From contig NZ_JAUSXI010000001.1 in the NCBI RefSeq assembly GCF_030815865.1, forward strand, positions 868,001 through 932,000: a stretch of 64,000 bases of DNA, written 5' to 3'. Position 1 is the first letter of the stretch; each line of letters starts with the position of its first letter. Shown here piece after piece: positions 5,610-64,000 of this stretch. The notes below the pieces were generated by a model. It was not told the origin of the DNA and made no database searches. It saw nothing but the letters and a program-made list of their open reading frames with translations. Source of the DNA: Arthrobacter globiformis (GTDB lineage Bacteria; Actinomycetota; Actinomycetes; Actinomycetales; Micrococcaceae). The position numbers and the translations under genes were made by a program.

Positions 5610-5625
5610 GGCGGCTGGATCCGCG

Positions 5626-6315
5626 ATGAGCCTTCCGAAAACGGTGCGGGCGTACTCGAGCGCTCTCGGGCCGGCAGATTGTGTTGCCGGCACGTTCCAT
5701 TACGACGCCATGTCGGGGCGGCTTGAATGGTCCGATGAGCTGTACACGCTCCACGGTTACCACCGCGGCGAGATCGTGCCCACCGTGGAGCTTCTCTACG
5801 CCCACAAGCATCCGGACGACAGGGACCGCTGCCATGACACCTTCATGGCGGCCTGTGAAGCGGGCGGATTTTTCTGCAGCTACCACCGCATCCTTGATGC
5901 CCGCATGCGGGAACACCGTGTCCTAACTGCCGGCGAGGCGCTCACGGAGGACGGCAGGCTTATTGCTGTTGAGGGGTTCATTGTTGACTTGACCAGCACG
6001 CTGCACTGGGAAACGGAAACGGCGGCACGGGAGGCGGTTAAAGGTGCCCTTGGCACGCGAAGCACCATAGAACAGGCGAAGGGCATCCTGATGGGCATCC
6101 TGCGGATTGGTTCCGAGGCCGCTTTCGACCTGCTGGCCAAATACAGCCAGGACACCAACATCAAGGTGGCCAGCACGGCTGCCGACCTGGTGCAGCTGGC
6201 CAACAGCCCGCAGCAGGCGGCATTGCTTGACACGTTCGTCCAGGAGCTCCAGCGGGGCCCGGACGGCCGGCCAGTCGGTGAAGCCGGTCAGTCCGTGGAG
6301 CCGGTAAGTCCGTAA
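5626..6315 (+). CDS. PAS-ANTAR regulator, likely RNA-binding antiterminator
   Basis: A 229-residue two-domain protein. Residues about 18-125 form a PAS_3-type sensor (GTFHYDAMSGRLEWSDEL, then HPDDRDRCHDTF). Residues about 145-200 form an ANTAR domain with the family signature IEQAKGILMGILRIGSEAAF. ANTAR proteins bind paired hairpins in nascent RNA and stop termination. The ATG at 5626 is chosen because it starts just before the PAS fold and 16 bp after the upstream stop; the frame extends further upstream only through the DUF1508 gene. The target RNA is not evident here. Confidence 0.85.
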   Translation: MSLPKTVRAYSSALGPADCVAGTFHYDAMSGRLEWSDELYTLHGYHRGEIVPTVELLYAHKHPDDRDRCHDTFMAACEAGGFFCSYHRILDARMREHRVLTAGEALTEDGRLIAVEGFIVDLTSTLHWETETAAREAVKGALGTRSTIEQAKGILMGILRIGSEAAFDLLAKYSQDTNIKVASTAADLVQLANSPQQAALLDTFVQELQRGPDGRPVGEAGQSVEPVSP

Positions 6316-49714: not shown

Positions 49715-50351
49715 TTAGCTGGCGGCCTTCGCCAGGCCGGTGCGGGCCATCGCGTCGGCGTAGGCAACCTGCATCTCGTCGAGGTACTGCTTCTGCCGCT
49801 CGGGGCTTCCTGCGAAGGAGCGGCCGCTCAGCGAACGGACCTTGTAGGTCTTGAGCCCCCGGCGCCAGAGCAGCGGAACCTCGGTCTTGAGCAGCAGGCC
49901 GGCGAGGCGGTTGGCCTCGGTGCCGTGGGCCACGATGACCGAGGCGCGGGGGACCAGTGCCAGAAATTTCAGCAGCGGCTTGAGGCCGGCCTGAATCTGG
50001 TCGGGGGGTGAACTTGCCGTTCGGCTCATCCCCCGTGTGCCACGGGTGGACGTTCCACGGCATGATGTACTCCGGCCGCAGGCCCAGCTTCCACTGGAGG
50101 CCCAGCATGCGGGTGGCAGCATCGTCGTCGCCCGGCATGATGAAGCCGGTGGGCGATGCCGCGCCGATGTTGGAGAAGAGGCTAATGATGCGGCATTCGT
50201 CGACGTCGTGCGCGGGGTCGACGTACGGCACCTGGGTGCCCGGCTTGGTGCTCTGCAATGTATCGCAGAGCTCATTGACAGCGGCAACGTTGGGCTCGTA
50301 ACGGCGCCTCAGAAGCTGTTCATGGAAAGATTCGGTAGCCAGGGCTGTCAT
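49715..50351 (-). pseudogene. Uracil-DNA glycosylase-like protein, frameshifted
   Basis: The N-terminal frame gives ISLFSNIGAASPTGFIMPGD and MPWNVHPWHTGDEPNGKFT, a UDG-fold pattern. The other frame then gives PDQIQAGLKPLLKFLALVPR, SVIVAHGTEANRLAGLLLKT and so on to the stop at 49715. One extra base in a run of six (plus-strand G 50003-50008) separates them; five would give a continuous 211-residue protein. The start is the ATG at 50351. The family includes UDG-fold proteins without proven glycosylase activity. Confidence 0.78.
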
Positions 50352-50571
50352 GTGGTGGTGTGTCTCCTGCAGGTGGGTCGCGCTGCCGCGCCGCAGGGCC
50401 GGCACGCCGCAGGCATGCCGAGTGCGGCGTGATTTGAAATAAGGTGTGGACCGGTAGCTGACCGGTTCACTCCAGTTTAGCAAGGCGACACAACCGAGAA
50501 CCCCGCCCCCGCGCGCCGCCGTGGCCGACACGCGGGGGGAAGGGCCTGCAGGGCAGCAAATGCGGGCTAAA

Positions 50572-51783
50572 TCACTTCCAGAGCCGTTTGGTGGCGAGGC
50601 GTGCGCCTTCTCCGAGAGCCTCAAGTTTCGCGACGGCGATCTGCGGGTGGACGCGGCCGCCGAGGCCGCAGTCGGTGGAGGCGATAACGTTCTCGCGTCC
50701 CACGAGCCTGGCGAAGCGTTCGATCCTGTCCGCCACCAGTTCCGGATGCTCCACGACGTTGGTGGCGTGCGAGACAACGCCAGGAATGATGACCTTGCCC
50801 TCGGGAAGCTTGGTGTCTTCCCACACCCGCCATTCGTGCTCGTGCCGGACGTTGGCTGCCTCAAACGAGTAGCCGCCTGCATTGATCTGCAGGACGGAGC
50901 TGATGATGTCGGCAAAGGGGATGTCAGTGGTGTGGGGGCCGTGCCAGGATCCCCAGCAGACGTGCAGCCGGATCTGGTCCTGGGGCAGGTCGCGCAGGGC
51001 CCAGTTGGTGGCCTCGACCCGGAGCTGGATGAAGTTGAGGTAGTCCTCGAGGCTGGGCTCGGGGTTGATCTGGTCCCAGCTTTCCGCCAGCGACGGGTCA
51101 TCGAGCTGCACGGTCAGCCCGGCGTCGATGATTGCCTTGTATTCCTCCCGCATGGCGTCGGCGCAAGCGTAGACCAGTTCCTCTTCGGTCTTGTAGTAGT
51201 CGTTGGCAACCCGTGCGCAGGAACCGGGCGAAAGCGACGCGACGAAACCCTCGGTGAGGCCGGCTGCCTGCATGCCGGTCTTGAGGTTGGCGACGTCCGA
51301 GGCCACGAGGTCCTGCCCGGTGTAGGTCAGCGGACCGGCGATCTTGGGCTGCGCGACGCTCTTGCGGTGGGCGAGGATCCCGGACGAGGGATCGCTGTAG
51401 GCGTCGTTGAACTTCTGCCTGTCCCGGCGGTCCGGGAAGGAGGTCAGGACGATGTTGCCCGGCCCGGAACGGTGCACCTCGGCATCGGCCCAGCGGTCCA
51501 CGTTGGTGGGTTCGAGGCCGCCGAGGCGCGCGAACGAGTAGTTCCACCAGGCGCCGTAGTCAACGCTGCTGGACATCGCGTGCCCGTATTCGCCGTCGTT
51601 GGGGATGTGGATGCCCAGGTCCTTTTGGCGCTGGACGATGTCCACCACGGAGGTTTCCAGGAGGTCCAGGAACTCGGGCGTGATGCCGTCGGCTTCCTTG
51701 GCAGCGTTGGCGGCGATGAGCTCCGGGGTGCGGGGCAGGGATCCGGCGTGGGTGACGCGGATGTGGTCGGTGTTCAGTGACAA
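50572..51783 (-). CDS. MetE C-terminal-like cobalamin-independent methyltransferase
   Basis: A 403-residue protein corresponding to the catalytic half of methionine synthase MetE. Zinc-type ligands are visible in RLHVCWGSWHGPH and STDCGLGGRVHPQ; ITPEFLDLLETSVVDIVQRQ and IHIPNDGEYGHAMSSSVDYG are family blocks. It lacks the MetE N-terminal barrel. Start is TTG at 51783 with GGAAAGG upstream. A SAM riboswitch in its leader strongly supports a methionine-related function. Confidence 0.87.
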   Translation of the reverse strand: MSLNTDHIRVTHAGSLPRTPELIAANAAKEADGITPEFLDLLETSVVDIVQRQKDLGIHIPNDGEYGHAMSSSVDYGAWWNYSFARLGGLEPTNVDRWADAEVHRSGPGNIVLTSFPDRRDRQKFNDAYSDPSSGILAHRKSVAQPKIAGPLTYTGQDLVASDVANLKTGMQAAGLTEGFVASLSPGSCARVANDYYKTEEELVYACADAMREEYKAIIDAGLTVQLDDPSLAESWDQINPEPSLEDYLNFIQLRVEATNWALRDLPQDQIRLHVCWGSWHGPHTTDIPFADIISSVLQINAGGYSFEAANVRHEHEWRVWEDTKLPEGKVIIPGVVSHATNVVEHPELVADRIERFARLVGRENVIASTDCGLGGRVHPQIAVAKLEALGEGARLATKRLWK

Positions 51784-51798
51784 GGCAGGGTTTCCTTT

Positions 51799-51908
51799 CC
51801 ATCGGTCCTGGCGGTAGCACCTTTACGGACGGCAGGCGCAGGGGCGCTGCCTTCGGTGCAAGGTTGCTGCGGCGTCAGCGATCCAGGTCTCTCGGCCGCT
51901 CCGGATGG
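51799..51908 (-). ncRNA. SAM riboswitch (S-box clan) in the MetE-like leader
   Basis: Leftward RNA contains GAGCGGCCGAGAGACCTGG, then GCAGCAACC (plus 51862-51870) and AAGGTGCTACCGCCAGGACC, the conserved core of SAM-I-type aptamers. CCATC (51904-51908) and GATGG (51799-51803) form the closing P1 helix. The ribosome-binding site GGAAAGG directly abuts the P1 3' strand, suggesting translational control. Whether it is SAM-I or the related SAM-IV or SAM-I/IV type is not settled. Confidence 0.87.
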
Positions 51909-51917
51909 TTCACTCTC

Positions 51918-51947
51918 ACTTAAGTCTCCGGATGGAGACAGTGGCAA
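51918..51947 (-). promoter_or_regulatory. Predicted promoter with operator in its spacer
   Basis: Read leftward, TTGCCA (plus 51942-51947) and TTAAGT (plus 51918-51923) are 18 bp apart. A perfect palindrome GTCTCC-GGAT-GGAGAC (51924-51939) fills that spacer. The remaining region to purA (51948-52187) shows only TAAACT at 52024-52029 as a possible purA -10. Confidence 0.5.
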
Positions 51948-52187
51948 ATCGCAGGCGGAATGTGTCGCCGGAGTCTCCGTCACGGGCGAAACACCAAAAG
52001 CCATACTTTTGCCCCTCATCCGCTAAACTTGGGTGGTAAGAGCCCCGGAACTCTTGCGTCCCTTCCCCCGTCAACGCCGCGGGTTCGGGCGACGAATTCG
52101 GGGCATTCTCATGAACGGCGCCGACCTCCGGTTGAAGCACCTCGGTGATCCATCCGGACCAGGCCCGAACGAATGGGGGAGGATCCC

Positions 52188-53477
52188 ATGCCAGCAATCG
52201 TGATCGTCGGAGCCCAGTGGGGCGACGAAGGAAAAGGTAAGGCCACCGACCTGCTTGGCGGCCGCGTCGACTACGTAGTGAAGCCGAACGGCGGCAACAA
52301 CGCCGGGCACACCGTCGTCGTAGGCGGCGAGAAGTATGAGCTCAAGCTCCTTCCGGCCGGTATCCTCAGCCCCAACGCCGTCCCCATCATCGGCAACGGC
52401 TGCGTCGTCAACCTCGAGGCACTTTTCCAGGAGATCGAGGGCCTCGAAGCCCGCGGCGCGGACACCTCCAAGCTGCGTGTCTCCGCCAACGCCCACCTTG
52501 TGGCCCCGTACCACCAGGTGCTGGACAAGGTCACCGAACGCTTCCTCGGCAGCCGCGCCATCGGCACCACCGGCCGCGGCATCGGGCCTACGTACATGGA
52601 CAAGGTTGCCCGCCTGGGGATCCGCGTCCAGGACGTCTTCGACGAGTCGATCCTGCGCCAGAAGGTGGAAGGGTCGCTGCGCCAGAAGAACGAGCTTCTG
52701 GTCAAGATCTACAACCGCCGCAGCATCGAGGTGGATGAAGTGGTCAATTACTTCCTCTCCTTCGCCGACCGGCTACGCCCCCTGGTCATCGACAGCACCC
52801 TCGTGCTGAACACCGCCCTGGACGAGGGCAAGGTGGTGCTCATGGAGGGCGGCCAGGCCACGTTCCTCGACGTCGACCACGGCACTTACCCGTTCGTCAC
52901 CTCCTCCAATCCCACCGCCGGCGGCGCCTCTGTAGGCTCGGGCATCGGCCCCACCCGCATCTCGCGGTCCATCGGCATCATCAAGGCGTACACCACGCGC
53001 GTCGGCGCGGGCCCGTTCCCTACGGAGCTCTTCGACGAGATGGGCATGTACCTGCAGAAGACCGGCGGCGAATTCGGCGTCAACACCGGACGCCCGCGCC
53101 GCTGCGGCTGGTACGACGCCGTCCTGGCCCGCCACGCCTCCCGCGTTAACGGCTTCACCGACTACTTCGTCACCAAGCTGGACGTCCTCACGGGCATCGA
53201 ACAGATCCCGGTGTGCGTGGCTTACGACGTCGACGGCGTCCGGCACGACGAGATGCCCATGACCCAGACGGAATTCCACCACGCCGCGCCCATCTTCGAA
53301 TACTTCGAAGGCTGGACCGAGGACATCACCGGCGCCCGCACGCTGGCTGACCTGCCCGAGAACGCCCGCAACTACGTGCTGGCCCTCGAGAAGCTGTCCG
53401 GCACGCGCTTCTCCGCGATCGGCGTCGGACCGGACCGCGACCAGACCATCGTGGTCAACGATCTGATCAACGACTGA
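52188..53477 (+). CDS. purA: Adenylosuccinate synthetase
   Basis: A 429-residue GTP-dependent enzyme of AMP synthesis. [18 protein letters not shown] is the phosphate loop, [20 protein letters not shown] follows, then [20 protein letters not shown] and [20 protein letters not shown]. The ATG at 52188 has GGGGGAGGA before it. A hairpin terminator follows at 53521. Confidence 0.97.
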
Positions 53478-53520
53478 CGCCGGAAGCGTCCGGCAGCAAC
53501 AGCTCAAGCAAGCAGTTCCC

Positions 53521-53558
53521 GACGGCGGCGGGTCACCTCACGGTGGCCCGCCGCCGTC
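53521..53558 (+). terminator. Terminator after purA
   Basis: GACGGCGGCGGG (53521-53532) pairs with CCCGCCGCCGTC (53547-53558), with CACC/GGTG inside. Only a short CTTTC follows, so it is a strong hairpin with a weak U tract. Confidence 0.8.
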
Positions 53559-53608
53559 GTGCTTTCAAGGGAGAAAACATCCCGTCAGAAAAAAGTTTTC
53601 GGAACCGC

Positions 53609-53636
53609 GTAACCTGCTGGCCCGCCGCTGCGATTA
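53609..53636 (+). promoter_or_regulatory. ECF-type promoter of the secreted-protein gene, copy 1
   Basis: GTAACC (53609-53614), 16-bp spacer, CGATTA (53631-53636), preceded by AAAAGTTTTCGGAACC. The same elements with identical spacing occur at 58356-58383. The pattern resembles the CGTAAC-N16-CGTTGA promoters of Streptomyces BldN (from memory). The adjacent sigma factor at 54357 is the obvious candidate user. Confidence 0.75.
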
Positions 53637-53649
53637 CGTATATGTAAGC

Positions 53650-53689
53650 GCCGGGCAGGAGGTTGTCCCCCATCGGCCTCCGGCCCGGC
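53650..53689 (+). ncRNA. C-rich-loop hairpin in the 5' leader, copy 1
   Basis: GCCGGGC (53650-53656) pairs with GCCCGGC (53683-53689), and GGAGG (53658-53662) with CCTCC (53677-53681), enclosing TTGTCCCCCATCGG. The loop core is identical to that of the hairpin at 58397, while the stem differs with compensating changes. It begins about 7 nt from the predicted transcription start and 29 bp before the start codon of the next gene. Confidence 0.7.
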
Positions 53690-53717
53690 CTTCAATCAAC
53701 CAAAGGATTTTTTTCTG

Positions 53718-54254
53718 ATGAAGAGTGTTAGCAAGACCACCAAGATTGCTGTCGGCGCCGCCATCCTCGCTGTTGGAGGTTTCTCCAGCATCGGACTGGC
53801 CAACGCTGCCCAGGTGTCCAGCTCGCAGCATGCAGAGGTGACCCCCGCTACGCCCGCCACGCCGGCCGTTCCTACCACCCCCGAGGTTCCGGCAGCCCCC
53901 GCCGTACCGGCCACGCCGGCCACCCCGACGGTTCCTGCCGCCCCGGCCGCCAAGGCCAAGGCTGCCGGCGAAGCTGCGGACGCAGCCGACGCCGCAGTGG
54001 AAGCTGACAAGGACAACGCTGCCGCCAACGCCAACGCCAACGTCTCCGCCGGGGACAAGGCTGCAGGCGCCAACGTGAACGCCGCCACCCCTGCTGTTCC
54101 CGGTGGCGCCGGCGTTCCGGCCACCCCGGCCGTTCCCGCCACCCCGGCTGTGCCGAACGTTGCGGACCACGTGGCCAAGCCGGCCGCACCGTCCGTCGCT
54201 GCAGACGCTGACGTCAAGGCTGACGCTGCTGCCGACCTGCCCACCGGCAAGTAG
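53718..54254 (+). CDS. Secreted Ala/Pro-rich repeat protein
   Basis: A 178-residue low-complexity exported protein. Residues 1-31 are a signal peptide (KSVSKTTK, hydrophobic core, GLANAAQ). The mature part has many A-T-P and A-V-P units (for example ATPATPAVPTTPEVPAAPAV), then an alanine/aspartate/asparagine-rich middle and a further PATPAVP block. No catalytic domain. AAAGGA precedes the ATG at 53718. It follows an ECF-type promoter and a leader hairpin and precedes the sigma operon, so it is probably a cell-envelope target of that system. Confidence 0.8.
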   Translation: MKSVSKTTKIAVGAAILAVGGFSSIGLANAAQVSSSQHAEVTPATPATPAVPTTPEVPAAPAVPATPATPTVPAAPAAKAKAAGEAADAADAAVEADKDNAAANANANVSAGDKAAGANVNAATPAVPGGAGVPATPAVPATPAVPNVADHVAKPAAPSVAADADVKADAAADLPTGK

Positions 54255-54295
54255 TCCGCAGCAAGCGAACAGGGCGTTCCCCGAATAGGGGCGTG

Positions 54296-54333
54296 AGGTG
54301 TGCGGCGGCTAGGCTTACTACCGCCGCACACCT
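54296..54333 (+). other. 13-bp perfect hairpin before the sigma gene
   Basis: AGGTGTGCGGCGG (54296-54308) pairs with CCGCCGCACACCT (54321-54333), 12-nt loop, no U tract. It ends 8 bp before the sigma-factor ribosome-binding site and could attenuate transcription from the secreted-protein gene or act as an operator. Confidence 0.55.
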
Positions 54334-54356
54334 GCAGTAAAGGGAAGGACAGCTCC

Positions 54357-54905
54357 TTGGCAGCTCAGCTGACCGACGACGAATTGTCAGCAGCCCTTTC
54401 TGGCGACCCCTCCGGCTTCACCGCCGTCTACAGCATCATTTCGCCCGCAGTCCTCGGCTATTTCCGCGCCCGCGGGGTGGACGACGCCGAAGCCCTCACG
54501 CAGGACGTCTTCGTGGATGTCCTGCCCAAGCTCAGCAATGTCAGGGGCGGCCACTCCGGGTTGCGGACATTCATCTTTTCCGTGGCTCATGCCCGGCTCG
54601 TGGACTATCACCGCCGGTCCGCGAGAACGCCGCAGCTTACCGAATTCGACCCGCTCTTGGATGAACGTCGGTCGAGTTCCGCCGAGGACGAGGTGCTCGG
54701 TTCGCTGGGCGGAATCACTTCATCACTTGCCATGCTCAACGACGACCAGCGGGAAGTGCTGGTCCTGCGGATCGTGGCGGACCTTTCGGTCGAACAGGTG
54801 GCCGGCATCATGGACAAGACCCCCGGGGCCATCAAACAGCTCCAGCGCCGCGGGCTGATAGCCCTGCGCGAACTCGTCAAGGAAAAGGACCACGCAGCAT
54901 CATGA
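54357..54905 (+). CDS. ECF-type RNA polymerase sigma factor
   Basis: A 182-residue sigma factor with region 2 (AVYSIISPAVLGYFRARGVD, DAEALTQDVFVDVLPKL) and region 4 (LNDDQREVLVLRIVADLSVE, GAIKQLQRRGLIALRE). No region 1 or 3. TTG at 54357 is chosen as start: AGGGAAGGA lies 7 bp upstream and it precedes the conserved region; an earlier frame extension crosses the hairpin. Its stop overlaps the next gene (ATGA), the usual link between ECF sigma and anti-sigma. Confidence 0.85.
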   Translation: MAAQLTDDELSAALSGDPSGFTAVYSIISPAVLGYFRARGVDDAEALTQDVFVDVLPKLSNVRGGHSGLRTFIFSVAHARLVDYHRRSARTPQLTEFDPLLDERRSSSAEDEVLGSLGGITSSLAMLNDDQREVLVLRIVADLSVEQVAGIMDKTPGAIKQLQRRGLIALRELVKEKDHAAS

Positions 54906-55678
54906 GTGTCACGCCGGCAGGCCGCGAAGAAGGAGAGATCCAGGCGATCCTCCTGGATTCCGGGCTCGAAGACGACGCCGATCTCCGCAGGTCCCTCGAA
55001 GAACTGCGCGGGCTCGCCCAGGACTCCGCACCCCAACCGCGGGCCGATCTCGCCGCGATGCTCGCACACGGGGCATCCGCTTCAGGCGTATCCGCGTCAG
55101 TCTTGCCTGCCCAGGGCCCAGCCATGCGACGCGCCGCCTCCAACGTAGACAGCCTCCAACTGCACCGCCGCAACCGGCAGCGGCGCATGGGCTTTGTGGT
55201 GGGCGCCGCAGTGGTCGGTGCCATGGGGCTTGGGGCTGGCGCTGTCGCAGCCTCCAGCGAGGACTTCCGCAACAGCGTAAGCCATACCGTGGTTCGAATC
55301 TTCCAGCCGACCAGCGAGACAACCGCGCCGACGCCGGTGCCCACGTCGCCCGCCGGCATTCCGGCGGCTCCGGGGCCAACTGTTGCTGCACCCAAGCCAT
55401 CGGTTACCGGGACGGCTGCTTCGCCGTCGGCACCTGTGACGCCCGCCCAGACGGATCCGGCTCCCTCGAACGGTTCATCGAACTCTTCGGCGGCGGACGG
55501 TTCATCCCACGGGGCGGCGAAGGGCCAGACGCCGTCGCCCGGCCGGCCCAGCCAGCTGCCCACAGTCCCAGGAACCGGCGTGGCTCCCAAGCTTCCGGCC
55601 AAGCCGTTGCCGGCAGTGCCTACGCTGCCGGGAGGCATGCCGACCGTCCCGGCCAAGCCGGTCCCCGGCACGCCTTAA
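54902..55678 (+). CDS. Membrane protein, probable anti-sigma factor
   Basis: A 258-residue protein with a charged N-terminal domain of about 95 residues, one membrane helix (about 97-117: MGFVVGAAVVGAMGLGAGAV) and a long Pro/Ser/Thr/Ala-rich outer part. The zinc-binding HxxxCxxC motif of many anti-sigma factors is absent. Coupling to the sigma gene and single-pass topology are the reasons for the call; no anti-sigma domain is recognised by motif. Confidence 0.65.
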   Translation: MSVTPAGREEGEIQAILLDSGLEDDADLRRSLEELRGLAQDSAPQPRADLAAMLAHGASASGVSASVLPAQGPAMRRAASNVDSLQLHRRNRQRRMGFVVGAAVVGAMGLGAGAVAASSEDFRNSVSHTVVRIFQPTSETTAPTPVPTSPAGIPAAPGPTVAAPKPSVTGTAASPSAPVTPAQTDPAPSNGSSNSSAADGSSHGAAKGQTPSPGRPSQLPTVPGTGVAPKLPAKPLPAVPTLPGGMPTVPAKPVPGTP

Positions 55679-55756
55679 ACCGAGCAACCCGAGTTTTTGT
55701 ACACTTGTTGTCAATTTCAGAAGTTGACTGCGCAAACCTTCCTGTAGTTCGGGGGT

Positions 55757-56062
55757 GTGCAGATGATTTGTGAGCACTGGCCGGGCGGTACTCCTCTGCA
55801 CGAGGGTCGCTGCTGTTCGGTACTCCTGTTCCCAAAGGAGCAAGGCAAGGACGCCGATCCGTTTCGCATTGCTGCTCGGGGACAGCTGACGATGTCGGAT
55901 GCCGCGTGTGAACAGGCCCGGAGCCGGGCTGCGGTGATCGGGGCGTTGGTGGCGCGGGGCACCGTAGGGATTGCGGCCGCCGACAGGGCCGCGGTGGAGC
56001 TCGGCGCCCAGAAGATTAGCCTGCTGCCGGTCCGTGGACTGCTGCCGCGTCGAACACGTTAG
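55757..56062 (+). pseudogene. Transposase/integrase N-terminal remnant
   Basis: The segment QLTMSDAACEQARSRAAVIG followed by ALVARGTVGIAAADRAAVEL matches the helix-turn-helix start of actinobacterial DDE integrases (Mu/IS481-like proteins). After about 85 residues the match is lost and no DDE domain follows. The upstream bases 55695-55730 hold TTGTCAA and TTGAC inverted half-repeats that could be an element end. It marks the left edge of an atypical region. Confidence 0.6.
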
Positions 56063-56104
56063 CGCTGAAGCACGATCCAGTGAGGCGACCTATAGAGTGG
56101 GCGC

Positions 56105-56506
56105 ATGGCGACCCTTCAGCCCTATGTCATTTTTCCCGGAACGGCTCGGGCAGCGCTCACCTTTTACAGGGACGTTTTCGGCGGTGAGCTTTCTTTACAT
56201 ACGTACGAGGACTTTGGCAGGAGCGACGGCGCGTTAAGCGCGATAGCTCACGGTGAGCTCCACGGCTTAGTTGCTTTGGCCGGAGCCGATGCAGCAGCCG
56301 GCGAGAAATCGGTCCAGGTCGAAGGCCTCATGCTCTCGGTGCTGGGAACCGCTGAACCGGAAGTTCTCCATGAATGGTTCGACAAACTCTCTGTTGGTGG
56401 TTCGGTGGTCGATCCCCTGGCGCCGAAGCCCTGGGGAGCGTCAGATGGCCAAGTTATCGATCGTCACGGACTTCACTGGCTCGTTGGATATGAGCACGGG
56501 GCGTGA
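56105..56506 (+). CDS. VOC family protein, PhnB-like
   Basis: A 133-residue glyoxalase/bleomycin-resistance-fold protein: QPYVIFPGTARAALTFYRDV, then SDGQVIDRHGLHWLVGYE. The fold supports metal enzymes and drug-binding proteins; here only the general family can be given. It stands alone in a region of lower GC and atypical codon use. Confidence 0.8.
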   Translation: MATLQPYVIFPGTARAALTFYRDVFGGELSLHTYEDFGRSDGALSAIAHGELHGLVALAGADAAAGEKSVQVEGLMLSVLGTAEPEVLHEWFDKLSVGGSVVDPLAPKPWGASDGQVIDRHGLHWLVGYEHGA

Positions 56507-56555
56507 ACGGAGAGGGTGTCTCGGTTCCAAGGAACTGGAACACCCTCCGTCGTGG

Positions 56556-56699
56556 ATGCCTCCGATTAGGTGTTCCGGGGTAGGAAAGACGAGTGTGGCC
56601 TACGAACTGCACTCGGAATTGACCGCCAAGGACCTGGCGCATTGCCTGATCGAGGGCGACAACCTGGATATGACCCATCCTGCGGCGAAACTGCCCTAA
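56556..56699 (+). pseudogene. Truncated P-loop kinase/ATPase fragment
   Basis: From the ATG at 56556 only 47 residues are read, with a Walker A motif (CSGVGKTSVAYELHSEL) and LIEGDNLDMTHPA, as at the start of AAA-type nucleoside or antibiotic kinases. The stop TAA overlaps the GNAT start (TAATG). The rest of the kinase is missing, probably through a deletion that joined it to the acetyltransferase gene. Confidence 0.6.
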
Positions 56700-57124
56700 T
56701 GGCTTCCAACGGTTCAAAACTGGTCGTTCGATTCAACGTGGACGACGCTTCACTTTCTCAACTCCATGCAGATGCCTTCGGCGCACCATTCCGCATGACT
56801 CCCTGGAGGGAACGCCTCGAACTGCATAGCGTCAGCTGGGTAGGCGCTTTCGAAGGAGAGCAACTAGTGGGCTTCGTTCACGCCGCATGGGACGGCGGTT
56901 CACACGCCTTTCTTCTCGACACGGCAGTAGCTCCCGATTACCAAAGTCAGGGCATCGGAACCGCAATCGTTAAATCCTTGATAGCGGACATCGCCAACCG
57001 AGGTTGTCAGTGGGTGCATGTGGACTATGAGCCGCACCTCGCTACGTTTTATCGCCAGGCTTGTGGATTCACACACACAGAAGCCGGCCTACTCGAACTG
57101 GCTCATAACACTCCTGGCACATAG
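56699..57124 (+). CDS. GNAT-family N-acetyltransferase
   Basis: A 141-residue acetyltransferase. LLDTAVAPDYQSQGIGTAIV is motif A with the acetyl-CoA loop, and HVDYEPHLATFYRQACGFTH motif B. Substrate unknown. The ATG at 56699 overlaps the stop of the kinase fragment. Codon use differs from the core genes, in line with horizontal acquisition. Confidence 0.82.
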   Translation: MASNGSKLVVRFNVDDASLSQLHADAFGAPFRMTPWRERLELHSVSWVGAFEGEQLVGFVHAAWDGGSHAFLLDTAVAPDYQSQGIGTAIVKSLIADIANRGCQWVHVDYEPHLATFYRQACGFTHTEAGLLELAHNTPGT

Positions 57125-57219
57125 AGGAGTTAAGAAAACCTTTAAAGTCCCAGTTGGAAGAACCTGGGACGGCCCCTGCGGCTTCGGGAAGTTCTAGGAG
57201 TAACTGGAAGAATCGTTGG

Positions 57220-58023
57220 ATGACTCTAATCAGCGCTGACGTCCCAGCTCGGCTGCGACCGGCCCTCCTTCAACTGCTCGCAGCGTGCAGTGACGACGGT
57301 CGAGTGCGTGCTGCATGGCTGGAGGGCTCGTTTGCGCGCGGCGAGGCCGATGCATGGAGCGACATCGATTTGCACCTCATCGTTGAGGAACCTGACACGT
57401 TCGGCGCTGTTGAATGGCTGGGCTCGCTGATGCCTTTGGTGCTGGCGGATGCCATCCCGGGTATAGCCCGGGCCTTCATCTGTCTTACTCCTGACTGGGT
57501 CCACGTCGACCTGAACCTCCATTCACTGGAAGATGAGCTGCGCCAGGGCACCATGCGGCAAGTACTTGTGGATAAAGACGCACTGGTGGCCAGCGAATAT
57601 GCGGCGGGGGTCTCCTCTGCAGAGCCCTTCTTTCCGGGGCAGCAGGCCCAAATCTTCCTCTACCTGATGGGTAGCACCGTCACGGCCCTCCACCGGAACG
57701 ACCTCCTTGCACTCTCACAAACAACAGTGATGATGCGCGACGGTCTGTTGATCCCGCTGATGCTGGCTGAGAACGGGATCGTGATCGGGACCGGTGCCAA
57801 ACGAATTGCGCGTCATCTGACCAGGGAGCAACAGGACTGTCTGGCGCGGCTGCCAGCCATCGGGCTCACCGAGACTGGCCTGCGGGAGGCGCAACGAGCC
57901 TTGGCTGCGGAGTACTTGGTCAGAGCCCGCCAACTCGCGGACGTATGTCACGCCGCTTGGCCGGCCGAGCTGGAACGGGCTGCCAAACGGTTGTGGCGGC
58001 ACGAACTCGAGATCGACTTATAG
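57220..58023 (+). CDS. Nucleotidyltransferase-domain protein (aminoglycoside ANT-like)
   Basis: A 267-residue protein with the polymerase-beta nucleotidyltransferase motif AAWLEGSFARGEADAWSDID (GS...DxD) and a later WVHVDLNLHSLED carrying the third acidic residue. A helical C-terminal half follows. This layout resembles aminoglycoside or lincosamide nucleotidyltransferases, but the drug target cannot be told. ATG at 57220; nearby GGAAG. Part of the acquired patch. Confidence 0.75.
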   Translation: MTLISADVPARLRPALLQLLAACSDDGRVRAAWLEGSFARGEADAWSDIDLHLIVEEPDTFGAVEWLGSLMPLVLADAIPGIARAFICLTPDWVHVDLNLHSLEDELRQGTMRQVLVDKDALVASEYAAGVSSAEPFFPGQQAQIFLYLMGSTVTALHRNDLLALSQTTVMMRDGLLIPLMLAENGIVIGTGAKRIARHLTREQQDCLARLPAIGLTETGLREAQRALAAEYLVRARQLADVCHAAWPAELERAAKRLWRHELEIDL

Positions 58024-58121
58024 GGAGTCCCCCTTTACAGCAGCCTGCCCGGTGGAGCCGGCAGGCCGCTGGGCGAGGAGTTCTGCCAGGTCGAGCGCAG
58101 TGCAGATCACTTCTGAAATGA

Positions 58122-58289
58122 ACCGCGGGAACAGCTCGTACTACGATCGCTACGGGTACAAGGGCTCCAAGAATCGTGTGCATCGACTGCAAGCAGGACG
58201 GCCGCGACGTTCCGGAACGGAAGAACTGGGACTGGCGCTTGTTGGCCCCAAACGGCCTGAAGTCGCGGTACGTGTACAAAAACTCCTAG
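58122..58289 (+). pseudogene. Small zinc-ribbon-like protein remnant
   Basis: The frame ending at TAG 58287-58289 reads VCIDCKQDGRDVPERKNWDW and RLLAPNGLKSRYVYKNS, which looks like a real protein end with a CxxC pair. No in-frame start is present; the frame is closed by TGA at 58119-58121 and an ATG at 58118 is one base out of frame. It may be a broken gene. An alternative overlapping frame from 58118 lacks protein-like character. Confidence 0.35.
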
Positions 58290-58355
58290 CGAGCCCGGAC
58301 GCTGAGGGGGGTAACCGGGCGGAAAATAAGTTTTTGAAAAAGTTTTGGAATCGGC

Positions 58356-58383
58356 GTAACCCTTTCGGGTTCCCCGTCGATTA
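58356..58383 (+). promoter_or_regulatory. ECF-type promoter, copy 2
   Basis: GTAACC (58356-58361), 16-bp spacer, CGATTA (58378-58383), preceded by AAAAGTTTTGGAATCG. Same elements and spacing as at 53609-53636. No protein-coding gene follows on this strand, only the hairpin RNA. Confidence 0.72.
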
Positions 58384-58389
58384 CCGAAG

Positions 58390-58441
58390 TGAGAGTGCCG
58401 GGCTGGAAGTTGTCCCCCATCAAATTCCAGCCCGGCATTTT
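58390..58441 (+). ncRNA. Predicted small RNA with C-rich-loop hairpin
   Basis: Transcription from the ECF-type promoter would begin near 58390. A perfect 12-bp stem (58397-58408 with 58425-58436) encloses GTTGTCCCCCATCAAA and is followed by ATTTTAATG, so the RNA could end within about 55 nt. The loop sequence GTTGTCCCCCATC is identical to copy 1; the C run could pair with Shine-Dalgarno-like G runs. The rest of 58290-58468 holds no gene. Confidence 0.6.
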
Positions 58442-58468
58442 AATGTCTTCGGTCTTACCGGCCTGTTT

Positions 58469-58963
58469 TTAAGCCAGGACCTGCCGCTTCGAGGAGATCA
58501 CTCCCGTATCGAACCCGGCCAGGTGAAGCCCGCCGTGGAAGCGTGCGTGCTCGATCTTGACGCAGCGGTCCATCACCACGTTCAGTCCCGCGGCCTCGGC
58601 ATCCTGCGCAACGCCCTCGTGCCACGAGCCGAGCTGCAGCCAGAGGGTCTTGGCACCCGCGGCCACGGCCTCGTCGAGCACGCCCGGCAGGTCATCGTGC
58701 TTGCGGAACACGTCCACGATGTCCGGGCTCTCCGGCAGGTCCGCCAGTGAGGCGTACGTCGGCTGGCCGAGGATCTCCTTGACCACGGGGTTGACGAAGT
58801 ACACCTTGTACCGCGTCGAGGACTGCAGATAGGTGGCCACGAAGTAGCTCGCCCGGGAGGGCTTGTCCGATGCGCCCACGATGGCAATGGACTTCGCCTC
58901 ACGCAGGAGGCCTAAACGCTCCGGCGCAGAGGGACCTGCCCAAGTTCTCTCAGTGGTGCTCAT
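58469..58963 (-). CDS. CoA-binding protein (YccU-like)
   Basis: A 164-residue Rossmann-type CoA_binding_2 protein: SIAIVGASDKPSRASYFVAT is the nucleotide loop and PDIVDVFRKHDDLPGVLDEA and TLWLQLGSWHEGVAQDAEAA are family blocks. Such proteins bind CoA or acyl-CoA with no known catalysis. Start overlaps the metY stop by ATGA, so it belongs to the acs-sfnG-metY operon, where a CoA ligand would make sense. Confidence 0.86.
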   Translation of the reverse strand: MSTTERTWAGPSAPERLGLLREAKSIAIVGASDKPSRASYFVATYLQSSTRYKVYFVNPVVKEILGQPTYASLADLPESPDIVDVFRKHDDLPGVLDEAVAAGAKTLWLQLGSWHEGVAQDAEAAGLNVVMDRCVKIEHARFHGGLHLAGFDTGVISSKRQVLA

Positions 58964-60315
58964 GCCCGTGCTCCAATCGTGCAGGAATCAGCTGCCGCGT
59001 CGTCAACAACGACGGCGTCTTCCGCCGTTGCGTTCTGCGCCTCGGTGAGGGCCTGGTCCAGGTCCCACAGGATGTCGTCGATGTCTTCCAGGCCAACCGA
59101 GATGCGAACCAGGTCCTCCGGAACGCCGGCGGATTCGAGCTGGGCCGGGCTCAGCTGCTGGTGGGTCGTGGACCCGGGGTGGATGACCAGCGTGCGGGCG
59201 TCGCCCACGTTGGCCAAGTGCGAGGCGAGTTGCAGGGATTCAATGAACTTTTGCCCCGCTGCCCGGCCGCCCTTCACGCCGAAGGAGAACACGGAGCCCG
59301 GTCCCAGGGGCAGGTACTTCCGCGCCCGCTCGAAGTGCCGATGGGAGGGCAGTCCGGAGAAGTTCACGTAGGCCACGCGTTCGTCGGCCTCGAGCCACTC
59401 GGCCACGGCCTGGGCGTTCTTCAGGTGCTCGTCCAGGCGCTGGGGGAGGGTTTCAACTCCCTGCAGCAACTGGAATGCGGACTGCGGGGAGAGGGCGGGC
59501 CCGATGTCTCGCAGCTGTTCGCAGCGCAGCTTGGTGAGGAACCCGTATTCGCCGAAGTTGCCCCACCAGGATACGTTGCCGTACGAGGCCACGGGCTCGG
59601 TCATGGTGGGGAACTTGCCGTTGCCCCAGTTGAACCGGCCGCTCTCCACGATGACGCCGCCCAGGGTGGTGCCGTGGCCTCCGATGAACTTCGTGGCGGA
59701 GTGGATCACGATGTCCGCGCCGTGCTCGATCGGCCGCACGAGGTATGGCGTGCTCAAGGTGGCGTCGACGACGAGGGGGATGCCGGCGTCGTGCGCCACC
59801 TTTGCCAGGGCCGCCAGGTCCTGGACCTCCGACGACGGGTTGGCCACCACCTCGACGAAGATTGCCTTCGTGTTCTCGCGGACGGCGGCCGCGTAGTCGG
59901 CGGGGTCGGTGCCGGGGACGAACGTGGTGTCCACACCGAAGCGGCGCAGGGTGACATCCAACTGGGTGACGGTGCCGCCGTAGAGCTGGGATGCCGCCAC
60001 GATGTGGTCGCCGGCCTGGGTGAGGGCGGCGAAGGTGATGAATTCAGCGGCCATGCCCGACGACGTCGCGACAGCTCCTATGCCGCCCTCGAGGGACGCG
60101 ATGCGCTCCTCAAACGCCGCCACGGTCGGGTTGCCGATGCGGGAGTAGATGTTGCCGTACTTCTGCAGGGCGAACAGGTTGGCGGCGTCCTGGGTGTCCT
60201 TGAACACGAACGACGTGGTCTGGTAGATGGGGACGGCACGGGCGCCGTGCTCGGCGTCGGGCGTGCCGCCGGCGTGCAGGGCGCGGGTGCGGAACCCGAA
60301 TTTGCGGTCAGCCAC
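58960..60315 (-). CDS. metY: O-acetylhomoserine sulfhydrylase
   Basis: A 451-residue PLP enzyme of the Cys/Met metabolism family. K209 in IVIHSATKFIGGHGTTLGG is the PLP lysine; YGNIYSRIGNPTVAAFEERI and LEGGIGAVATSSGMAAEF are typical of MetY. It makes homocysteine from O-acetylhomoserine and sulfide, releasing acetate. GTG start shares one base with the sfnG stop. Operon position behind a SAM riboswitch supports the methionine role. Confidence 0.93.
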   Translation of the reverse strand: MADRKFGFRTRALHAGGTPDAEHGARAVPIYQTTSFVFKDTQDAANLFALQKYGNIYSRIGNPTVAAFEERIASLEGGIGAVATSSGMAAEFITFAALTQAGDHIVAASQLYGGTVTQLDVTLRRFGVDTTFVPGTDPADYAAAVRENTKAIFVEVVANPSSEVQDLAALAKVAHDAGIPLVVDATLSTPYLVRPIEHGADIVIHSATKFIGGHGTTLGGVIVESGRFNWGNGKFPTMTEPVASYGNVSWWGNFGEYGFLTKLRCEQLRDIGPALSPQSAFQLLQGVETLPQRLDEHLKNAQAVAEWLEADERVAYVNFSGLPSHRHFERARKYLPLGPGSVFSFGVKGGRAAGQKFIESLQLASHLANVGDARTLVIHPGSTTHQQLSPAQLESAGVPEDLVRISVGLEDIDDILWDLDQALTEAQNATAEDAVVVDDAAADSCTIGARA

Positions 60316-61523
60316 TAGACGTTCACCAGCCCACTGGTTGAGCTTGCCGAAGCCACCGGCGTCTGGGACAAGTCCAGCTCGGTGCCGTTCTTGCGGGCGA
60401 GGTCCGCCTCGAGTTCGCGCACCATCGGCAGGATGTCCTGGCCGAAGGCAGCGACTTCCTCCTGGAAGTGCAGGTAGCCGGTGAGGAACAGGTTCACGCC
60501 GATCTTCTTGTACTCAACGATCCGCTCGGCGATCTGCTCGGGGGTGCCGATCAGCTGCGTCTTGAAGCCGTCGTTGTACTGGACCAGATCCTCGAACGTG
60601 GAGTCCGCCCACATGCCCTTGCCGTCCTTGGTGGACGCGCCGGCTTCCTGGACGGCGTCGCGGAAGCCCTGCACAGCGGGCTTGTGTGCCTTCTCGACGA
60701 TTTCGCGGAGGGTGTCGCGGGCTTCCTTCTCGGAGTCGCGGGCGATGACGAAGCCGTTGAGGCCAAACCGGGGTGCGGCCAGCGCGCCCTCGGTGCCGCG
60801 CCGGGTCTCGCCGGACGCCGAGACCACGCCTGCGATGTTCTCCTTGAATCCCTCCAGGTCCTTGCCGTTGGAGAAGTACCAGTCGGCGACGCGGCCCGCG
60901 GTGGCCTGGGCCGCCGTCGAGTTTCCGCCGAAGAAGATCTCCGGGTGCGCGCGCCCCGGAACGTCCACGGGGGCGGGGTTCAGGGTGAAGTCGGTGATGT
61001 TGTAGTACTTGCCGGCCTGGCTGTAGTCCTTCTCCGTCCACAGCCCGCGCAGCACCCTGATGAATTCCTCGGTGCGGACGTAGCGTTCGTCGTGCTCCAG
61101 CCATTCGAGGCCAAAGTTGGTGAACTCGTTCTTGAGCCAGCCGGAGACGATGTTGACGGCGGCGCGGCCGTTCGAAATGTGGTCGGCGGTGATGATGTAC
61201 TTGGCCAGCACACCGGGGTGCCACATGCCGGGGTGGACGGCCGAGATGACCTTAAGCCGCTCCGTGGCCGCCAGCAGGGCGAGACTGAAGGACGTCGCCT
61301 CGTGCTGCTTGTCGGCGCCGTAGGATGCGGCATAGCGGGTCTGCGTCAGGGCGTATTCGAAGCCGGATTCCTCCGCGATGCGGGCCAGCTTCTTGTTGTA
61401 GTCGAAGTCCCAGCTGGTGCGCTGCTCAATGGTGGAGACCACCAGGCCGCCGGACACGTTCGGCACCCAGTAGGCGAACTTCAGGGGTTCGGAAAGACGG
61501 GCTACGTTGCTGATGTCGTTCAT
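60315..61523 (-). CDS. sfnG: FMNH2-dependent dimethylsulfone monooxygenase, SfnG-like
   Basis: A 402-residue bacterial-luciferase-like flavin monooxygenase. KFAYWVPNVSGGLVVSTIEQ, NIVSGWLKNEFTNFGLEWLE and RAHPEIFFGGNSTAAQATAG agree with SfnG, which oxidises dimethylsulfone to methanesulfinate for sulfur supply. The ATG at 61523 has AAAGGAACG upstream. The C-terminal VASASSTSGLVNV is encoded by a dispersed repeat (60335-60352). No flavin reductase is adjacent. Confidence 0.88.
   Translation of the reverse strand: MNDISNVARLSEPLKFAYWVPNVSGGLVVSTIEQRTSWDFDYNKKLARIAEESGFEYALTQTRYAASYGADKQHEATSFSLALLAATERLKVISAVHPGMWHPGVLAKYIITADHISNGRAAVNIVSGWLKNEFTNFGLEWLEHDERYVRTEEFIRVLRGLWTEKDYSQAGKYYNITDFTLNPAPVDVPGRAHPEIFFGGNSTAAQATAGRVADWYFSNGKDLEGFKENIAGVVSASGETRRGTEGALAAPRFGLNGFVIARDSEKEARDTLREIVEKAHKPAVQGFRDAVQEAGASTKDGKGMWADSTFEDLVQYNDGFKTQLIGTPEQIAERIVEYKKIGVNLFLTGYLHFQEEVAAFGQDILPMVRELEADLARKNGTELDLSQTPVASASSTSGLVNV
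60335..60352. repeat. Dispersed GGTTGAGCTTG repeat in the sfnG C-terminus
   Basis: TGGTTGAGCTTGCCGAAG lies inside the last codons of sfnG (leftward), adding a serine/alanine-rich tail. It is related to the copies at 49641 and 61788. Confidence 0.65.
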
Positions 61524-61533
61524 GATCGTTCCT

Positions 61534-63753
61534 TTACTTCTGTCCGGAGTTGGGGTTTCCGGGGACGGCGGTAGCGCATCGGTGCAGCGCATCCTGGATA
61601 CCGGCAATGGCCGGTTCGTTCTGTAGCGACGTGGTGTCGCCGAGGGTGGTTCCCTCGTAAAGCTGGGTCAGCAGCCGGCGCATGATCTTGCCGCTGCGGG
61701 TCTTGGGTACGTCCGGGACAACGACGACGTCGCGCGGCTTGGCGATCGGGCCGATCTCCTTGGCAACGTGGTTGCGGAGGGCTTCGCTGGTTGAGCTCGT
61801 CGAAACCAAGCCCGCCGAAACCCCGCCCTTCAAAACCACAAACGCGACGACGGCGTGGCCCGTCTTGGGGTCGGCGACCGGACAGACGCCCGCTTCCACC
61901 ACGTCCGGGTGGGTGACGAGGGCGGACTCGATCTCGATCGTGGAGAGCAGGTGGCCTGAGACGTTGAGTGTGTCGTCAACCCGACCGAGGATCCAGATGT
62001 CGCCGTCGACGTCGTACTTGGCGCCGTCGCCGGCAAGGAACCAGCCCTGCTCCGCATACTGGCTCCAGTAGGAGTCGAAGTAGCGGCGCGGGTTGCCCCA
62101 GACGGTCCGGGCGATTGCCGGGCCCGGCTGGTCCACGACGATGAAGCCCTGCACACCGGGGTCGGTGCGGTTCCCTGCCTCGTCCACCACCCGGGTGCTG
62201 ACGCCGGGGAGCGGGCGGGCAGCGCAGCCGGGCTTGAATTCGGTGTCCGTGGGCGCGGGGGACATGATGGTGGCCCCGGTTTCGGACTGCCACCAGGTAT
62301 CCACCATGGGCGCGGTGCCTGCACCGAGGTTGTCGCGCAGCCAGCGCCAGGCCTCCGGGTTCACGGCCTCTCCCACGGTGCCGAGCATCCGGATCGAGGA
62401 GAAGTCGTAGCTGTCAGGCACGCCGTCCGGGAACCAGCCCATGAGCGAGCGGACCAGGGTGGGCGCCGTGTAGTACTGGGTGACGCCGTAGCGTTCGATG
62501 ATCTCGAAGTGCCTGCCGGGATGCGGGGTGTTGGGCGTGCCCTCGAAGATCACCTGCGTCACGCCGTTGGAGAGCGGGCCGTATATCTCATAGGTGTGCG
62601 CGGTGACCCAGGCGAGGTCGGCCGTGCACCAGTGCACGTCCTGGTCCCGGAGCGCCGGATCGGGGTTGCTGAACAGGTGCTCGAAGCTCCAGGAGGCCTG
62701 GGTCAGGTAGCCGCCGGAGGTGTGGACCAGTCCCTTGGGCTTACCCGTGGTGCCGGAGGTGTACATGATGAACAGGGGAGTCTCGGCGTCGAACGCCTCC
62801 GGTTCGTGCACGTCGGAGGCGGGCCCGACGACGTCATGCCACCAGACGTCGCGGCCTGCGGTCATTGGGACTGCAGGGAGGTCTGCGGGGGCGGTGGTGC
62901 GGTTGATGACCAGGACGCGCTCGATGGCGTTGTCGCCGGCGACGGCGGCATCGGCGTTGTCCTTGACCGGGACCGCGACGCCGCGGCGGAACTGGCCGTC
63001 GGTGGTCACCAGCAGCTTCGCGCCGGTGTCAACGACGCGGAACCGGAGTGCCTCGGCGGAGAACCCGCCGAACACCAGGGAGTGCACGGCTCCGATCCGG
63101 GCCACCGCGAGCGTGATAATGACGGTTTCCGGGATCACGGGCAGGTAGATGACCACGCGGTCACCCTTGGTGATGCCGAGGGCCAGCAGGGCATTGGCGG
63201 CCTTGGAGACTTCACGCTGCAGTTCGGCGTAGGTGATGGTGCGGCGGTCGCCCGGTTCGCCCTCGAAGAACAGCGCCACCTTGTCCCCGCGGCCGGCGGC
63301 GACATGGCGGTCCACGCAGTTGTACGCGACGTTCAGCCTGCCGCCGTCGAACCACTTGATCTCGGGTCCACGGCCGGCTTCGACGTCGGCGGGCAGCCAG
63401 CTGTGCGCCGTGTGCCAAGGCCTTTGGGTGCCACGTTGCTGGTTGACGGGGCGCTCGGCCCAGTCCAACCGGAGGGCCTGTTCCTCCCAGAAGGCCACGT
63501 TGCCGGGATCGACAATGGTGCTGGGATCGACAGTGGGGGTGGTGCCGCTGTGACGCGCCGGCCCGTCGGTGGGGACGCCGTGCACTGCGCCGTCCGTTGG
63601 CTCGGTCGAGGACCATCCCGAAGAGCCGCTGAAGGAGCCGGGCGCGTCACGCAGCCCTGCTTCGTTCGCCGTCGCGTCCGAAGTGGTTTGTGGGGTTGCC
63701 TCAGATGGAATCCGGGCAAGGTTGGGCAGGGCAGAAGCATTCTTTGGGGTCAT
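61534..63753 (-). CDS. acs: Acetyl-CoA synthetase with N-terminal extension
   Basis: A 739-residue AMP-forming acetate:CoA ligase. FWEEQALRLDW opens the normal fold at about residue 89, so about 80 disordered Ser/Thr/Pro-rich residues are extra. The phosphate loop is YTSGTTGKPKGLVHTSGG (331-348), and K689 lies in PKTRSGKIMRRLL, the catalytic and acetylation lysine. Residues 649-655 are encoded by an inserted dispersed repeat. The ATG at 63753 is supported by GGAG overlapping the riboswitch. It heads an operon with sfnG and metY. Confidence 0.92.
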   Translation of the reverse strand: MTPKNASALPNLARIPSEATPQTTSDATANEAGLRDAPGSFSGSSGWSSTEPTDGAVHGVPTDGPARHSGTTPTVDPSTIVDPGNVAFWEEQALRLDWAERPVNQQRGTQRPWHTAHSWLPADVEAGRGPEIKWFDGGRLNVAYNCVDRHVAAGRGDKVALFFEGEPGDRRTITYAELQREVSKAANALLALGITKGDRVVIYLPVIPETVIITLAVARIGAVHSLVFGGFSAEALRFRVVDTGAKLLVTTDGQFRRGVAVPVKDNADAAVAGDNAIERVLVINRTTAPADLPAVPMTAGRDVWWHDVVGPASDVHEPEAFDAETPLFIMYTSGTTGKPKGLVHTSGGYLTQASWSFEHLFSNPDPALRDQDVHWCTADLAWVTAHTYEIYGPLSNGVTQVIFEGTPNTPHPGRHFEIIERYGVTQYYTAPTLVRSLMGWFPDGVPDSYDFSSIRMLGTVGEAVNPEAWRWLRDNLGAGTAPMVDTWWQSETGATIMSPAPTDTEFKPGCAARPLPGVSTRVVDEAGNRTDPGVQGFIVVDQPGPAIARTVWGNPRRYFDSYWSQYAEQGWFLAGDGAKYDVDGDIWILGRVDDTLNVSGHLLSTIEIESALVTHPDVVEAGVCPVADPKTGHAVVAFVVLKGGVSAGLVSTSSTSEALRNHVAKEIGPIAKPRDVVVVPDVPKTRSGKIMRRLLTQLYEGTTLGDTTSLQNEPAIAGIQDALHRCATAVPGNPNSGQK
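61788..61807. repeat. Dispersed GGTTGAGCTCGTCGAAACC repeat inside acs
   Basis: TGGTTGAGCTCGTCGAAACC lies within the acs coding sequence and, read leftward, encodes GLVSTSSTS in a surface loop before the C-terminal domain block HVAKEIGPIAKPRD. Frame is kept. Confidence 0.7.
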
Positions 63754-63762
63754 TGCAGCACT

Positions 63763-63893
63763 CCATCGGTCCTGGCAGTAGCACCCCTAGCCCGCCGCCG
63801 GGACGGAAGAACAGTGACGTGGGAATGGTCGTCTCACGTCACCGGGGGTTGCTGCGGCTTCATCGATCCAGGTCTCTCGGCCGCTCGGGATGG
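63763..63893 (-). ncRNA. SAM riboswitch (S-box clan) heading the acs-sfnG-metY operon
   Basis: Leftward RNA has GAGCGGCCGAGAGACCTGG, GATCGATGAAGCCGCAGCAACC-type core (GCAGCAACC at plus 63847-63855) and GGGGTGCTACTGCCAGGACC, closely matching the aptamer at 51799. P1 is CCATC (63889-63893) with GATGG (63763-63767). The acs ribosome-binding site GGAG shares bases with the P1 3' strand, so ligand binding should block translation start. Bases 63894-64000 upstream hold only a weak TTGAGA/TAGTAG promoter candidate. Confidence 0.85.
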
Positions 63894-64000
63894 TCACTAC
63901 CTACTAGAGCCGACTTGCAGGATTTCTCAAAATTGGCACCTTTGGAGCTGTAATATTCGTTCATCACGGTCGGGATCACTGCCTGCCATCCACATATTCG

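Follow-up and report, generated by a model that had tools for sequence, protein, structure and literature searches.

An S-box-led operon of Arthrobacter globiformis joins a second acetate–CoA ligase to O-acetylhomoserine sulfhydrylase

We analyzed a 64,000-nucleotide stretch of the Arthrobacter globiformis genome (contig NZ_JAUSXI010000001.1, positions 868,001 to 932,000; hereafter the window), near the right end of which four genes lie in one minus-strand run behind a SAM-I (S-box) riboswitch aptamer, a class named for its ligand S-adenosylmethionine (SAM). The run begins with acs (61534-63753), which encodes a 739-residue paralog of acetate–CoA ligase, and continues with sfnG (60315-61523), for a flavin monooxygenase of the dimethylsulfone-monooxygenase family (402 residues from its ATG), metY (58960-60315; GTG start), for an O-acetylhomoserine sulfhydrylase of 451 residues, and a gene that we label coaB here (58469-58963), for a 164-residue protein with a CoA-binding domain. 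Gene calls and aptamer matches confirm the order and junctions given in a first-pass annotation made from the sequence alone, with a 10-nt gap between acs and sfnG, a 1-nt overlap of sfnG with metY, and a 4-nt overlap of metY with coaB. Across the 6.1 kb of the operon we found no promoter-like site (0.3 expected from shuffles) and three terminator-like sites (3.7 expected); the acs/sfnG gap contains no site of either kind, in keeping with the single run that the annotation had proposed. An RgsA match at 58295-58367 (25.7 bits against a cut-off of 88.4) was dismissed as chance.

The window Acs scores 763.4 bits against TIGR02188 (cut-off 724.95) and falls far under the respective cut-offs of the propionate and acetoacetate ligase models, and SfnG reaches 619.3 bits against TIGR04021 (cut-off 382.95) and matches PDB entry 8t0u at 445 bits. 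MetY reaches 599 bits against TIGR01326 (cut-off 495.1), a subfamily model, from which its acetyl substrate is predicted. The coaB product matches PF13380 (CoA_binding_2) at 139.7 bits (cut-off 22.8), and CoA binding by this protein is likewise a prediction.

The aptamer (63760-63896, minus strand) has the structural traits of the Rfam SAM-I family, RF00162, namely helices P1, P2 and P3, the GCAACC/GGTGC core, and the pseudoknot between L2 and J3/4. P1 pairs CCATC (63889-63893) with GATGG (63763-63767), and the pseudoknot pairs CTGG of L2 (63868-63871) with CCAG (63772-63775). An Rfam scan of the window at gathering thresholds listed no aptamer. In a permissive scan of positions 51000-64000, however, RF00162 matched the leader with an E-value of 2.6e-6, so that the covariance search proposed in the first-pass annotation upheld the aptamer by E-value, although its score of 40.1 bits lies below the gathering score of 44.4, which is a curation cut-off and not a structural trait. 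In the alignment, this low score accompanies an expanded P3 region and three outer pairs of P1 that are non-standard. At E ≤ 0.001, RF00162 matched the whole genome twice, each time inside the window and under the gathering cut-off, which is exceeded by a match in 218 of 295 genomes of the family. Model R1, a covariance model made from 38 relatives' S-boxes with the window's own two excluded (its E-values are rough), scores the aptamer at 90.5 bits (E 2.4e-22). Across the 38 relatives, 99.5% of the cells in these helices and in the L2-J3/4 pseudoknot are paired, against 25.6 to 58.8% in slid controls; letter shuffles of the same alignment pair at 99.3% on average, with 8 of 500 reaching 99.5%. 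Eighteen of the 22 aptamer pairs are invariant and two have changed on both sides, which is thin covariation support, and with most pairs invariant conservation weighs more than covariation. Free folding of the leader did not recover the aptamer (z 0.60), so the case for it rests on conservation of sequence and structure.

The GATGG 3′ strand of P1 runs on into the Shine-Dalgarno-like sequence of acs (GATGGAG), such that the GG of GGAG (63761-63764, read from the sequence) lies inside P1; GGAG ends 7 nt ahead of the ATG of acs (63753). Because the Shine-Dalgarno sequence overlaps P1, control of acs by the S-box is probably translational. A similar spacing recurs in relatives, where 69 of 101 S-boxes (matches of more than 60 nt) have an ATG, GTG or TTG 7-10 nt past GATGG, a count that takes the first in-range triplet and may include some false starts. 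Placement of the ribosome-binding site within the 3′ side of P1 is a layout already known for SAM-I, as PMC2258182 describes. PMC1262725 reports Actinobacteria with riboswitch base stems overlapping the translation start and, for its earlier genome set, no conserved RNA structure seen before methionine operons. The window aptamer thus shares with SAM-I riboswitches of the direct-occlusion kind the core, P1 to P3, the pseudoknot and the position of the ribosome-binding site, and differs from them in its sub-gathering score, its large P3 insertion and the acetate–CoA ligase gene that it precedes. This probable mechanism of control is a known one; its target is the unusual part.

A canonical acs elsewhere in the same genome scores 974 bits, which identifies the window gene as a paralog. 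In a tree of 45 Acs rows, one branch with a support of 100/100 separates 36 operon-type rows from 9 housekeeping rows. All 35 rows filed as operon-type share the acetate-pocket residues V, T, V and W, mapped by alignment; we take them to correspond to positions 310, 311, 386 and 414 of the Salmonella enterica enzyme. In the same 35 rows an alanine replaces the glycine beside the pocket. In the residue table, operon-type L255 and L080, apparently from one organism, sit in the housekeeping column with the 9 housekeeping rows and presumably account for the two alanines and two threonines of that column; for the tree both were relabelled and L080 was dropped. The TIGR02188 equivalog cut-off is passed by the window Acs and two others, and one operon-type member falls just under it (709.9 against 724.95). 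Acetate is the likeliest substrate of the operon-type Acs, to judge from these residues and scores. A DmdB-like or sulfoacetate ligase role was set aside on account of the retained acetate pocket.

The distribution of the genes was followed in one genome from each of 32 Micrococcaceae genera, after 18 rows at 37-41% identity (other acyl-CoA synthetases) had been excluded from both acs classes. Operon-type acs, metY and coaB (59-95%, 72-97% and 63-99% identical to the window's, respectively) are all present in the same 23 genomes and all lacking in the same 9 (Fisher p = 3.6e-8 for acs against metY, a statistic that ignores common descent), and coaB lies directly downstream of the operon-type metY in all 23. 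Within genus g20 one genome (G020) lacks all three types and another (G072) has all three, which indicates at least one joint gain or loss of the three at short range. With distance counted on the same strand from where the homology match begins, an S-box lies within 350 nt upstream of the operon-type acs in 15 of the 23 genomes and at 351-7000 nt in 7; none of 34 housekeeping acs genes and none of 32 metX genes has an S-box in the 7 kb upstream. Among the seven more distant cases, the intervening genes were read for G012 (flavin reductase) and G031 (ssuBAC). The operon-type metY has an S-box within 350 nt in 9 genomes, at 351-7000 nt in 7, and none in 7, and among 39 other MetY-like rows the corresponding numbers are 2 within 350 nt and 3 at 351-7000 nt. 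In G001, G016 and G021 the S-box stands within 350 nt of acs, and metY is 97, 17 and 20 kb away; the S-box also immediately precedes acs in G072, G027, G034 and G005 (L229-L232; L229 is the G072 locus). Operon-type acs is thus a recurrent SAM-riboswitch gene, with an S-box upstream in 22 of the 23 genomes, and its constant partners are metY and coaB, as would be expected under acetate recycling.

The presence of sfnG is less constant. Among the best 80 of 578 confirmed SfnG-related loci, acs, sfnG, metY and coaB follow one another on one strand in 70, some non-adjacent; 68 of these are plain, and the count includes L017, where metY appears in two alignment pieces, and L012, where an overlapping acs match masks the sfnG label. 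The acs end lies less than 400 nt ahead of sfnG in 51. The acs-sfnG-metY order prevails among these loci. It is not seen in six genomes of genus g12, where the S-box is followed by a flavin reductase gene and then by acs, metY and coaB, and sfnG is absent from between them; in four of the six (L224 to L227) the called frames of acs and metY share 4 nt. These six were picked from high-ranking S-box matches among 22 g12 genomes and are no random draw. Of the 73 SfnG loci with acs, 26 have the S-box immediately before acs and 28 have ssu importer genes between the two; four loci are cut by contig edges, and no S-box was found in 15, which comprise eight Georgenia or Brachybacterium loci, L041 (which starts inside ssuA and is not assessable), and six others. 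In L009, L019 and L020, three of these six, decayed-looking aptamer remains are visible by eye upstream of acs, with no model match, as if the S-box had been lost in some lineages. More widely, 52 of 394 genomes of the class, among them that of the window, have a TIGR04021 match over the cut-off, and among 52 other actinobacterial SfnG loci over the cut-off acs, metY and coaB occur together in 3, two of them Micrococcaceae (five of these loci are shortened by contig ends, and neighbors may be missed). Since so few of these loci carry the other three genes, the linkage is a feature of the Micrococcales and not of SfnG in general.

The binding protein of one such importer (L037) scores 217.8 bits against the SsuA-family cut-off of 163.5. 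No ortholog of it was found in the window genome, where the best match is 29% over part of its length, and the window operon consequently looks like a version that lost the importer. Sulfonate operons have the gene order ssuEADCB, which the relatives' versions resemble in their SsuABC-type importer genes; the window differs in having no importer, in including Acs and MetY, and in carrying an SfnG-type instead of an SsuD-type monooxygenase. Behind the S-boxes of L211, L214, L215, L218, L219 and L221 are genes for luciferase-type and acyl-CoA-dehydrogenase-type proteins, genes for ABC transporters accompanied by NlpA-type lipoproteins, and ssuBAC, and together the other S-boxes of the Micrococcaceae appear to form a large organosulfur SAM regulon. 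The second S-box of the window (51796-51911, minus strand; 41.0 bits with RF00162, below 44.4, and 91.7 bits with R1) heads a short MetE-like gene (50572-51783; Meth_synt_2, 47.4 bits). Such a gene is present in 17 of the 80 related loci, and 14 of these have an S-box no more than 250 nt from it; in loci that place it past coaB, the distance is 1.9-6.0 kb, mostly about 4 kb. Just past the right end of the window, a second CoA_binding_2 gene (L113:6041-6466, plus strand) points away from the S-box, and 47 of the 80 loci have a relative of this gene in divergent orientation no more than 1 kb from an S-box, ssuB or acs.

The first-pass annotation had SfnG freeing sulfur from dimethylsulfone, and this did not hold. 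According to PMC8234197, SfnG converts dimethylsulfone to methanesulfinate, where its action stops, and sulfite is reached only with MsuC and MsuD. In the window genome no SsuD/MsuD reaches the cut-off of 518.2 bits (the top match is sfnG itself at 140.3 bits, the next 46.5); MsuC and a flavin reductase were not sought. Growth on dimethylsulfone as sulfur source is for this reason not predicted with confidence, and the dimethylsulfone part is the weaker part of the reading. Compared with the Pseudomonas sfn/msu genes (SfnG, MsuC, MsuD, MsuE), the window shares the SfnG family protein; its genome differs in having no SsuD/MsuD over the cut-off, and its sfnG in being preceded by a riboswitch and associated with acs and metY. 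Operon-type acs is also present in two genomes (G002 and G012) without an sfnG over the cut-off, and SfnG may be a lineage-specific organosulfur add-on.

MetY converts O-acetylhomoserine and sulfide to homocysteine and acetate, with one acetate released per homocysteine. The window MetY belongs to the same O-acetylhomoserine sulfhydrylase family as that of metX-metY direct sulfhydrylation systems; its type differs in being tied to acs and coaB, often led by an S-box, and away from metX. Before the metX of L264 (5924-7246), positions 5623-5807 hold a decayed match to the MetY C terminus (42-60% identity over short pieces). In G009, from the window's genus, one MetY match alone reaches E ≤ 1e-60. 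The metX-linked MetY seems to have been lost in this genus, and the decayed stretch together with the single G009 match suggests that the S-box MetY is probably its main homocysteine synthase.

The gene families, the aptamer, the co-inheritance and the S-box before acs are established by computation. The recurrence across the family of an S-box acs paired with metY suggests deliberate recycling of the acetate of methionine synthesis, and the occurrence of SAM-controlled Acs solely with the operon type of MetY fits such recycling; we consider it fairly probable that a dedicated Acs returns MetY acetate to the donor pool of MetX. With ample SAM, the riboswitch would lock the acs Shine-Dalgarno sequence into P1, a layout that is seen directly, and keep the operon off; with scarce SAM, Acs, SfnG, MetY and CoaB would be produced together. 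MetY would then generate homocysteine and acetate from O-acetylhomoserine and sulfide, the dedicated Acs would return the acetate to acetyl-CoA, and MetX, encoded elsewhere with no S-box, would spend it on new O-acetylhomoserine, so that an ATP-driven acetyl cycle would be switched on along with homocysteine synthesis. CoaB, the constant partner of MetY, may sense CoA. The response to the ligand, the use of acetate by Acs and the flux through the cycle are what we infer. Further still, and only tentatively, acs, metY and coaB might form a three-protein module in which Acs reuses MetY acetate where it is released and CoaB, as a sensor of CoA or acetyl-CoA or as a bridge between the enzymes, matches sulfhydrylation to acetyl-CoA supply, with the whole set by SAM through the riboswitch.

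Several observations weigh against acetate recycling. Within the family sample, one of the 23 genomes (G026) has no S-box upstream of its operon-type acs, and the eight Brachybacterium or Georgenia loci carry the cluster with no S-box found. SsuABC-type importer genes separate the S-box from acs in 28 of the 80 loci, and in two Tersicoccus loci (L066 and L071) an S-box-ssuBAC-acs run diverges from an S-box-sfnG-metY-coaB run, so that acs accompanies the importer. In 28 of the 32 genomes metX adjoins another MetY type, mostly without an S-box, which should release acetate too, and acetate release alone therefore leaves a dedicated Acs unexplained; metX, the would-be user of the acetyl-CoA, is itself free of S-box control. 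In Corynebacterium glutamicum, PMC8922893 reports that added acetyl-CoA-forming enzymes did not increase the O-acetylhomoserine titre; the same study offers a precedent in favor of recycling, in that acetate feeding raised this titre.

The main rival account, unlikely in our view though to be taken seriously, is that Acs serves organosulfur catabolism, activating acetate or another small acid left by flavin-monooxygenase cleavage of an imported sulfonate or sulfone, and that its link with MetY reflects shared sulfur-starvation control alone. Such a role would account for the S-box, ssu importer and acs runs, for the importer genes that also stand ahead of acs in the eight Georgenia or Brachybacterium loci, and for the S-box-flavin reductase-acs order of the six g12 genomes; the SsuA-family score of the L037 binding protein and the luciferase-type and acyl-CoA-dehydrogenase-type proteins behind other S-boxes of the family point the same way. 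Yet the window genome has this acs with neither an SsuA ortholog nor an SsuD/MsuD over the cut-off, G002 and G012 have it with no sfnG over the cut-off, and metY and coaB accompany acs in 23 of 23 genomes (a count over the 32 genomes that did not extend to ssuA). That the paralog acts on a different, perhaps sulfur-containing, carboxylic acid is quite improbable: the separate clade, the alanine for glycine in all 35 rows and the one member just below the acetate equivalog cut-off would suit this idea, but the four pocket residues are retained, the window Acs and two others pass that cut-off, and the propionate and acetoacetate models lie far below theirs. We give slightly less credence again to acs as a passenger or general acetate scavenger in a starvation regulon, with no specific partner. 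Although acs and metY have separate S-boxes and transcription units in several genera, the exact co-presence and co-absence of acs with metY and coaB across the 32 genera speaks against it, as does the S-box that precedes acs even where acs stands away from metY.

Apart from these genes, an open reading frame at about 49715-50400 on the minus strand, presumably for a uracil-DNA-glycosylase-type protein, is apparently split across two frames, by a frameshift or a sequencing error.

The riboswitch class and the enzyme families of the operon are known, and what appears to be new is their regulatory pairing, which recurs across the family. We found no description of acs under a SAM riboswitch in open-licence PubMed Central at title and abstract level, which agrees with the earlier claim that the arrangement is undescribed. 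The finding would bring acetate activation into the SAM-riboswitch regulon, explain the duplicate acs genes of the Micrococcaceae, and supply a testable context for MetY-linked CoA-binding proteins. If the three-protein module were true, a known pathway would be run as a closed, regulated cycle that was previously unrecognized. Acetate recycling predicts that recovery of this acetate costs or limits flux in methionine synthesis by direct sulfhydrylation, which would bear on the engineering of methionine strains.

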